The notes beneath the pieces are model-generated. The model was not told where the DNA came from. It saw only the letters and a program-made list of their open reading frames with translations, and did not search any database. A stretch of 33,886 bases of DNA from Lysobacterales bacterium (GTDB lineage: Bacteria > Pseudomonadota > Gammaproteobacteria > Xanthomonadales > Xanthomonadaceae), in the NCBI GenBank assembly GCA_017302035.1, contig JAFLEA010000027.1:1-33886 (forward strand). Direction: 5' to 3'. The position numbers were made by a program, and so were the translations under genes. Of the stretch, positions 20,095 through 27,587 are shown in pieces (the first letter of the stretch is position 1; each line of letters starts with the position of its first letter).

Positions 20095-20106
20095 GATTCT
20101 AGAATC
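20095..20106. promoter_or_regulatory. Palindromic bidirectional promoter between oleB and the UPF0149 gene
   Basis: GATTCTAGAATC is a perfect 12-base palindrome that yields a TAGAAT -10 element on each strand (plus 20100-20105, minus 20101-20096). The oleB ATG begins 26 bases beyond its box and the plus-strand ATG at 20131 begins 25 bases beyond the other. No clear -35 boxes are visible. Confidence 0.55.
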
Positions 20107-20160
20107 AACCTCTTGGTTCCGCGAACTATCATGAGCGGACCGTCACCGCATACCGCCGCC

Positions 20161-26349: not shown

Positions 26350-26487
26350 TTCCTGCCCCGTCCCGCAGGCCTTCCATACCCCTGCCACGCATCAGACGCC
26401 GCGTCTGGACGGGCCTGCGGACGTCCGCGCCCGCGCCGGACAGGTCTTCGTCGCGGGACAAATCTTTTTAAATCAATTACTTGAAGT

Positions 26488-26502
26488 TGGCACGCGGTGT
26501 GC
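26488..26502 (+). promoter_or_regulatory. Sigma-54 type -24/-12 promoter
   Basis: TGGCACGCGGTGTGC fits the RpoN consensus TGGCACG-N4-TTGC at 14 of 15 positions (counting N as free), with GG and GC exactly 10 bases apart. AT-rich DNA (26462-26480) lies just upstream. The predicted start near 26514 gives a leader of about 135 bases before the repeat-protein gene. The spacer 26324-26649 otherwise holds only the GGCGCC palindrome and a small GGGAAA/TTTCCC hairpin (26564-26583); I see no gene in it. Confidence 0.65.
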
Positions 26503-26649
26503 GTTGGCTATGGGCAGGCCACGCGATCCACCCTCAGAACGTGAATGGATGGTGAACGTGGCTGGGAAAGGCTCAAGTTTCCCTTGCACTTGCTGGTTAG
26601 GTGTATTACTTTACTACCACACCACTGACACAGAACACCGGAGCACGCC

Positions 26650-27066
26650 ATGAACACCACCACCGCCAAGTCCCTGTCCGCCGCCCTGATCCTGTCCCTG
26701 GCCGTCCTGTCCGGCGCCCGCGCCGCCGAGGCTCCGCGCGCGGAGCACATCGTCGACCTGCCGGCCGTGACCGTCCGCCCCGATGCCGCCCTGCGTACCG
26801 AACTGGCCGCCCACGCCGCCAAGGTCGATCGCATCGTCGACCTGCCCGCGGTCACGGTCCGCCCCGACGGCGCCCTGCGCACCGAACTGGCCGCCCGGGC
26901 CATGGTCGCCCACATCATCGACCTGCCGGCCGTGACCGTGCGCCCGACCGCCGAGCAGCTGGCCGAGCGCGCCGCCGTCATCGCCGCCGAGCGCGCGCAG
27001 GCGCTGACCGCGCAGCTGGCCGCCAGCCTGATGGCCGAGACCGCCGCGGCCGCCGGGCTGCGCTGA
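26650..27066 (+). CDS. Small secreted protein with three DLPAVTVRP repeats
   Basis: A 138-residue protein that I cannot name. A signal peptide (residues 1-25, ending ARA) is followed by three repeats of 27-28 residues that begin at 33, 61 and 88. Each starts with (H/R)I(V/I)DLPAVTVRP and the first two continue with a near-identical LRTELAA stretch. The third runs into an alanine-rich helix (AERAAVIAAERAQALTAQLAASL). GGAG 6 bases before the ATG sets the start. The repeats resemble the short extended strand at the start of TonB-receptor plugs only loosely. A sigma-54-type promoter lies upstream. Likely periplasmic or secreted; function unknown. Confidence 0.75.
   Translation: MNTTTAKSLSAALILSLAVLSGARAAEAPRAEHIVDLPAVTVRPDAALRTELAAHAAKVDRIVDLPAVTVRPDGALRTELAARAMVAHIIDLPAVTVRPTAEQLAERAAVIAAERAQALTAQLAASLMAETAAAAGLR
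26746..26976 (+). repeat. Three in-frame coding repeats of about 84, 81 and 66 bases
   Basis: Units begin at 26746, 26830 and 26911. The first two are nearly identical in DNA across the ATCGTCGACCTGCC and CGAACTGGCCGCCC parts; the third is shorter and diverged at its end. This looks like tandem duplication within the gene. Confidence 0.8.
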
Positions 27067-27110: not shown

Positions 27111-27587
27111 ATGCCAGGTCCTGCCTTCGACATCCTGCTGTACCAGCCGGAGATCCCGCCGAACACCGGCAACGTGATCCGGTTGTGCGCCAACACCGGC
27201 GCGCGCCTGCACCTGGTCGAACCGCTCGGGTTCGCGATGGAGGACAAGCAGCTGCGCCGCGCCGGACTGGACTACCACGAGTTCGCCAGCGTGCGCGTGC
27301 ACGCCAGCCTGGACGCCGCCCTGGCCGCGATCCGGCCGACGCGCCTGTTCGCGCTGAGCACCCGCGGTCAGGTCCGCCACGACCAGCCGCGCTATGCCGA
27401 CGGCGACGCCTTCCTGTTCGGCCCGGAAACCCGCGGCCTGCCGGAAAGCGTGCTCGAGGCGGTCCCGCCGGCACAACGCCTGCGCCTGCCGATGCGACCG
27501 GGCAACCGCAGCCTGAACCTGTCCAACGCGGTGGCGGTGGTGGTGTTCGAGGCCTGGCGCCAGAACGGATTCACCGGAGCTGGCTGA
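27111..27587 (+). CDS. trmL: tRNA (cytidine/uridine-34-2'-O)-methyltransferase
   Basis: A 158-residue SPOUT methyltransferase of the TrmL (YibK) type, which adds a 2'-O-methyl group to the wobble base of two leucine tRNAs with S-adenosylmethionine. Seen motifs: LYQPEIPPNTGNVIRLCANTG at the start, LFGPETRGLP, and the trefoil-knot end LRLPMRPGNRSLNLSNAVAVVVFEAW. Length is normal for the minimal TrmL. It starts 44 bases after the repeat-protein gene but has its own TACAAT box. Confidence 0.95.
   Translation: MPGPAFDILLYQPEIPPNTGNVIRLCANTGARLHLVEPLGFAMEDKQLRRAGLDYHEFASVRVHASLDAALAAIRPTRLFALSTRGQVRHDQPRYADGDAFLFGPETRGLPESVLEAVPPAQRLRLPMRPGNRSLNLSNAVAVVVFEAWRQNGFTGAG

Follow-up and report, generated by a model that had tools for sequence, protein, structure and literature searches.

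What does a small gene for an exported repeat protein do behind a sigma-54-type promoter, and from where does it derive? The gene was analysed within a window of 33,886 nucleotides (the whole stretch of DNA under study), from a 2.9-Mb assembly that is 99% complete. An earlier note had described an RpoN-type promoter and a lineage-specific periplasmic or secreted protein, but missed a second promoter (P2) overlapping a YtrA-type operator, as well as the gene’s homology to one of the first genes in the YtrA operon. From comparative sequence analysis, we interpret the gene as a satellite of that operon that has moved elsewhere, has had its boxes amplified and is under dual control.

In the encoded protein a signal-peptide-like N-terminus precedes three boxes of the form I(V/I)DLPAVTVRP, and a long helix occupies the C-terminal end (Table 1), in agreement with the signal peptide and three repeats described before. 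The AlphaFold model (26 sequences; mean pLDDT 72.6 and pTM 0.32, weak overall) consists of helices and coil with no strands; the first two residues of Box 3 form the end of a helix and the remainder is coil, at moderate confidence, while block mean pLDDT reaches 86–97 across residues 101–138. With 138 residues, no Pfam match above cut-off and a model of helices and coil, the protein is devoid of the plug and beta-barrel domains of a TonB-dependent receptor. No solved structure was found for the family profile in a search up to E 1, and the sole match in an Rfam scan was sX9, below threshold (20 bits versus a gathering value of 44).

Table 1. Positions in the window of the gene, its predicted promoter elements and its neighbour, with the basis of each assignment
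Feature	Position	Strand	Basis
Enhancer-like half-sites CGGACGTCCGC (26418-26428) and CGGACA (26437-26442)	26418-26442	+	Half-site clustering
IHF-type site AATCAATTACTTG	26471-26483	+	Exact match to WATCAANNNNTTR
Sigma-54-type promoter P1 (-24/-12), TGGCACGCGGTGTGCG	26488-26503	+	Conserved spacing and distance
Direct repeat TGAAT-N6-TGAAC, 11-bp step	26542-26557	+	By eye, upstream alignment and upstream stretches
Sigma-70-like promoter P2, TTGCAC-17-TACTTT	26584-26612	+	Read from sequence
YtrA-type operator dyad GGTGTATTACTTTACTACCACACC, 24 bp, over P2 -10	26600-26623	+	Genome-wide motif search
Exported three-box protein gene (XAC0231-like), 138 aa	26650-27066	+	ORF and family comparison
Box 1 IVDLPAVTVRP, residues 34-44	26749-26781	+	Coil in model, moderate confidence
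Box 2 IVDLPAVTVRP, residues 62-72	26833-26865	+	Coil in model, moderate confidence
Box 3 IIDLPAVTVRP, residues 89-99	26914-26946	+	Coil in model, moderate confidence
C-terminal helix, residues 101-137	26950-27060	+	AlphaFold model
SpoU-family methylase gene, neighbour	27111-27587	+	Pfam SpoU_methylase

By profile comparison, the three-box protein is a divergent relative of the NCBIfam family NF052303, ‘XAC0231 family protein’, aligning over residues 6–129 to positions 3–122 of the 146 in the model (59.5 bits, E 4e-16). The same repeats, signal-peptide-like start, SpoU methylase locus and promoter architecture are found in this family, the difference being that the window protein scores under the curated cut-off of 140 bits; so do the relatives L059 (64.9 bits) and L072 (79.3 bits), whereas four Xanthomonas-/Stenotrophomonas-type homologues (L083, L079, L086 and L189) pass it at 153–197 bits. 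‘XAC0231 family protein’ is the sole name found and the NCBIfam model assigns no function to it; a literature search for XAC0231 found no paper, in keeping with the earlier note, which knew of no described function. Of the 17 genomes from the genus, 16 have a homologue (the exception being an 87%-complete assembly), as do 93 of 297 genomes and 13 of 54 genera of the family (E 1e-3) and, order-wide and with weak matches counted, 97 of 398 genomes (E 0.01), a distribution that bears out the lineage restriction proposed before. With the single protein as query, no relative was found in the genome contigs; an alignment query yielded 28 loci. One member of the genus, L071, has been deposited as Xanthomonas sp. 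The C-terminal part of the homologue from Pseudoxanthomonas sp. NC8 (G011; L012/L065) is wholly unlike the others past residue ~109, a pattern consistent with a frameshift or an error in sequencing; this sequence entered the alignment unaltered.

Conservation of the reading frame in relatives, on which the earlier proposal hinged, is evident from the genome searches and from dN/dS values of 0.27–0.74 for the whole gene in all nine pairs tested. Values for the boxes lie below those of the remainder in seven of the nine pairs, the boxes being no more constrained in the other two; constraint on the boxes in most pairs is a computed part of the model developed below. Near-identity of the first two repeats in DNA had been overstated: copies 1 and 2 share 83% identity over 75 nt, and across the (H/R)-box they agree at 31 of 36 nt. 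Four of the five differences there are silent, which suggests that the peptide is under selection and that the duplication is not recent. Variation in repeat number, envisaged between strains, is observed between species, with two to four boxes by pattern count in 25 sequences. Box spacing varies between 20 and 46 residues; this variability, the constraint on the boxes and their placement in coil fit an array of short linear motifs better than a repeat fold.

The distal promoter, P1, centres on TGGCACGCGGTGTGC (26488–26502), where GG and GC are ten bases apart, the RpoN spacing recognised previously; the -12 GC at 26501–26502 predicts a start at ~26513 and a leader of ~136 bases, close to the ~135 given before. 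Taken by its own score the element is not significant, with one match to TGGCAYN6TGCD in the window against 0.85 expected (chance level), and with two mismatches to TGGCACGN4TTGCW, a pattern matched within three mismatches 49 times in the window against 66 expected. It becomes convincing because it is conserved across species: the element recurs, always equally far upstream of the gene, in 15 of the 16 sequences from the genus, in all 14 loci compared at family level and in 24 of the 28 named loci (those without it being L070, L078 and the paralogues L080 and L084), three sets that overlap one another. P1 is thus supported as a putative sigma-54 promoter by conservation rather than by score.

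The AT-rich DNA remarked on upstream of P1 contains an exact match to WATCAANNNNTTR, which we take to be the IHF consensus; exact matches in the window number two against 0.04 expected, the other lying at 20103–20115. Among 37 distinct homologous promoters (41 chosen for having the P1 element, less four duplicates), 14 have an exact IHF match as their best within 40 bp, in another 14 the best match has one mismatch and in nine it has two or three, compared with 0.3% exact and 3.2% with up to one mismatch in shuffles, and all 28 matches with no or one mismatch sit at -17 from the TGG. In the same promoters CGGAC/GTCCG half-sites average 4.65 per promoter versus 0.41 in mononucleotide shuffles, counted over the first 95 of the 130 bp preceding the -24 element. 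Enhancer, IHF site and -24/-12 element is the order expected of a sigma-54 promoter. The combination of CGGACGTCCGC with TGGCACG 40–90 bases on occurs once in the genome and is uninformative alone, since the reversed control also occurs once. The TGAAT-N6-TGAAC direct repeat, which is conserved in the upstream alignment, is a possible response-regulator site.

Of the regulated expression that the earlier note attributed to an enhancer-binding protein for nitrogen, pili, biofilm or stress, the conserved sigma-54-type promoter is supported, and one rpoN was found in the genome. Activator candidates comprise three strong matches (over 230 bits) and two at 24–26 bits, the strong ones reading as an NtrC-like protein, a PilR-like protein and an orphan enhancer-binding protein. 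The orphan, which adjoins a biofilm-amyloid-like gene cluster, is disfavoured: its N-terminal domain was matched in 19 of 149 genomes and was unmatched in at least three, including G013, G022 and G031, all of them with both the gene and its sigma-54 element in place, in a search that could overlook a diverged copy. Both the NtrC-like and the PilR-like protein remain candidates. PilR recognises the motif (C/G)TGTC, of which two copies lie in the 300 bp before P1 of the window, three or four in most of six relatives listed, and one before the genome’s own pilA element. The genome’s pilA and Fap-like promoters have -24/-12 elements with poor IHF matches (four and three mismatches, respectively), and no half-site cluster was seen before either. 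The cluster beside the orphan (L146, C1:47000–62000 of the same genome), which reads as Fap-like, encodes a repeat-rich secreted protein, a C39 peptidase (Pfam), another exported protein and a barrel protein; a sigma-54-like site, TTGGCACGGGTCGTGCG, was picked out by eye in front of it.

Closer to the gene, the sigma-70-like P2 has the counterpart TTGACC-17-TACCTT in several relatives, and its -10 region is covered by the dyad. The pattern GGTGTNNTANTNNANTANNACACC, allowing up to one mismatch, has two occurrences across the 2.9 Mb of the genome and its reversed control has none; the second occurrence precedes a small ORF, a 120-residue GntR-domain protein (Pfam GntR, 57.9 bits) and an ABC ATPase, the regulator probably belonging to the YtrA subfamily by its small size and by our reading of its sequence. 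Across the family the dyad is found in 137 of 149 genomes and 50 of 54 genera, mostly at one or two sites (range 0–4), with the reversed control present in one genome, G068, among the matches listed. P2 and its dyad are kept more widely than P1, as in Pseudoxanthomonas broegbernensis (L070), which has the dyad and, by pattern, no sigma-54 element.

Thirty dyad loci were read. A YtrA helix-turn-helix sequence lies 412–601 bp downstream in 19, seven precede a small GYGxSSGY protein, and four do neither, these being two loci before genes read as RND efflux periplasmic adaptors (L123 and L145), one before a short box protein (L144) and one before a small ORF without the YtrA sequence searched for (L122). 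The adaptor loci suggest that drug efflux forms part of the dyad regulon in some lineages. The GYGxSSGY proteins follow a second dyad of other genera (L117, L118, L128, L130, L136, L137 and L140), with a further copy nearby in L118 and L137; they have no obvious signal peptide, and the one tested gave no Pfam or NCBIfam match. Retention of the promoter with exchange of the gene at a single locus was considered for these and rejected, as six of the seven are without a downstream SpoU-methylase start in the stretch read, which marks them as a different target. Boxes also exist outside the dyad regulon, in the paralogues L080 and L084 and in the family member L188, which carry boxes and no dyad.

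A link to the operon itself emerges from outside the family, where eight loci were sampled from 23 genomes with a match. In all eight the homologue lies 3' of a dyad (0–2 mismatches; 60–364 bp before the match, the greatest distance being that of L183, where another small ORF intervenes) and carries box-like motifs together with PYYSF near the C-terminus. The YtrA gene and ABC ATPase follow in two of three longer stretches; the third has the ATPase, its YtrA gene being absent from the filtered list. Two of these three stretches continue, at a greater distance, with genes read as fumarase and purB, as does the window’s own genome, where a 344-residue lipoprotein-like gene (L190:4616–5647) also follows in the YtrA operon region. 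Within Xanthomonadaceae the features are divided: first genes of the YtrA operon have a box in 0 of 19 and keep a PYFSF-like tail in 14 of 19, and the gene linked to the trmL-like methylase has boxes and no such tail. NF052303 matches the trmL-linked proteins and, weakly, two outside-family proteins tested (E 1.5e-4 and 0.003), with no match to the one Xanthomonadaceae YtrA-operon first-gene protein tested; the proposed outside-family homology carries modest E-values. The simplest reading would be duplication, relocation and a division of parts, with the operator retained at both loci, and we infer the relocation from homology and the common operator only. The gene, its family, both promoter architectures, the common operator and homology with the small gene of the operon are the computed parts of this account. 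By comparison, the regulation and the family link are well supported, and molecular function is put forward as a hypothesis.

The product would be a small exported, largely flexible protein displaying two to four box copies on helical spacers, descended from, or related to, the small exported protein at the start of the YtrA operon and still a member of that regulon. A YtrA-type GntR repressor would occupy the dyad over the P2 -10 region until an inducing envelope signal removes it, turning on the ABC transporter operon and the three-box gene together, and P1 could be driven independently by sigma-54 RNA polymerase with IHF and an activator bound at the CGGAC/GTCCG cluster. Beyond the inner membrane the boxes may act as a multivalent array binding a periplasmic partner by beta-strand addition, for which the C-terminal domain of TonB, occupied during envelope stress, would be the leading candidate. 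Here we infer YtrA repression, export, mode of binding, partner and purpose. The model in its entirety, from relocated YtrA-operon relative through dual P1/P2 control to a box array with a periplasmic partner, strikes us as having slightly better than even prospects.

Should P1 be unused, P2 alone would work and the upstream conservation would belong to another regulator. Two of the 26 dyad-bearing named loci (L070 and L078) do lack a sigma-54 element by pattern, and a single P1 match carries no significance; however, the fixed -24/-12 spacing, the IHF-type site in register and the half-site cluster recur in most loci, and we give this alternative little credence. We rate as equally improbable that the repeats form a functional amyloid, or a fibre of the biofilm matrix, that is secreted and switched on by sigma-54. 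Imperfect repeats of ~27 residues, a signal-peptide-like start, the sigma-54-type promoter and the Fap-like cluster adjoining the orphan activator would suit such a fibre, although box spacing is variable, the predicted model is without strands, no half-site cluster was seen before the Fap-like promoter, and the orphan’s domain is unmatched in G013, G022 and G031 despite retention of gene and site there (a diverged copy could escape the search).

A role as accessory to the YtrA-operon ABC transporter, whether as periplasmic adaptor, sensor or cargo, would dispense with TonB, the boxes binding the periplasmic parts of the transporter or each other. Homologues at the start of the YtrA operon outside the family and the common operator favour it, as does analogy with S. 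aureus PmtR, described in an excerpt of PMC5080381 as a YtrA-subfamily repressor of an exporter operon that is released by exported peptides; the regulator and ATPase match the PmtR and PmtA models at 58 and 129 bits, below the cut-offs of 200 and 350 bits, respectively. Against this, in Xanthomonadaceae the gene and the transporter genes occupy separate loci, and it is there that the boxes were amplified. We consider such an accessory role a substantial possibility, short of an even chance. The dual-control model with a periplasmic partner remains our preferred reading, and its boldest part, that the boxes bind TonB, is an interpretation of predicted motif likeness.

That likeness is to boxes of the genome’s own receptors, which carry, for example, TDLPAVQVTA and VDLDAVQVNA before the plug. 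A matrix was built from 25 TonB boxes, selected visually among 27 Plug loci; no box was recognisable in L111 and L112, which were left out. The window boxes score 12.7, 12.7 and 9.1, compared with a median of 21.0 and a lowest value of 9.7 for real TonB boxes by leave-one-out scoring; of 18,043 control 10-mers three reach 9, the highest at 12.0. A second control of 42,978 10-mers, contaminated by receptor boxes and leftover family repeats, includes a single unrelated 10-mer that outscores the window boxes (14.0); we rely on the first control, which is slightly weakened by the second. All three window boxes end in Pro, as do none of the 25 TonB boxes. Among 77 boxes of 26 homologues, 55% reach the control maximum and about 3% the lower quartile of real boxes, rising to 66% and 23% when the last position is omitted, and some Stenotrophomonas boxes (VTLDTVQVRP, 19.7) are fully receptor-box-like. 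TonB boxes of receptors and TonB-dependent colicins are likewise short, flexible and hydrophobic-alternating, and colicin M provides an instance in the unstructured N-terminus of a non-receptor protein (both from an excerpt of PMC11658791); the present proteins differ in having two to four copies, Pro after the core, and neither plug nor barrel. A multivalent TonB-box decoy under YtrA and sigma-54 control, occupying TonB and throttling TonB-dependent import in envelope stress, is on balance an unlikely outcome. If the boxes do bind TonB, they would represent the bacteria’s own means of lowering TonB-dependent import, with a bearing on the entry of siderophore-antibiotics and bacteriocins; a true decoy would shut a door for antibiotics and bacteriocins and save energy during envelope stress.

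The three-box gene system is not new in kind. B. subtilis YtrA and S. aureus PmtR–Pmt similarly comprise a small GntR-domain regulator adjoining an ABC ATPase, with a palindrome over the promoter, but here the first gene of the operon encodes a small exported protein, and the palindrome recurs at a distant gene for a multi-box protein, which has a sigma-54-type promoter of its own. HpaR1 of Xanthomonas campestris, from the same bacterial family as the present regulator, is identified in an excerpt of PMC4730234 as an autorepressor of the YtrA subfamily, and is likened to it here at the level of subfamily. No description of this gene, of its dual control or of a tie to the YtrA operon was found among the titles and abstract openings listed in literature searches. 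For a protein family of unknown function the analysis supplies a regulon, a probable evolutionary source and a binding motif open to testing, and one gene is seen to combine a sigma-54/IHF-type promoter with a YtrA-type operator.

Several further observations concern the surroundings of the gene and its relatives. Of 26 relatives examined, 24 have a SpoU methylase start motif no more than 700 bp downstream, the paralogues L080 and L084, at other loci, having been excluded beforehand; the methylase gene of the window, putatively trmL-like by our own reading, is recorded as a neighbour and not counted into the system. In the flanks of L066, L067 and L070 there is a canonical TonB box (SELDTVVVTG or NELDTVVVTG), and a large frame lies beyond the methylase gene, so that a receptor gene is probable there. 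The two paralogues, from P. yeongjuensis (L080) and P. gei (L084), combine a membrane-anchor-like N-terminus with one or two boxes and with a Cys that is C-terminal or nearly so, and adjoin a conserved small ORF starting MKTSTYNSWWREMGAISRGMMF.
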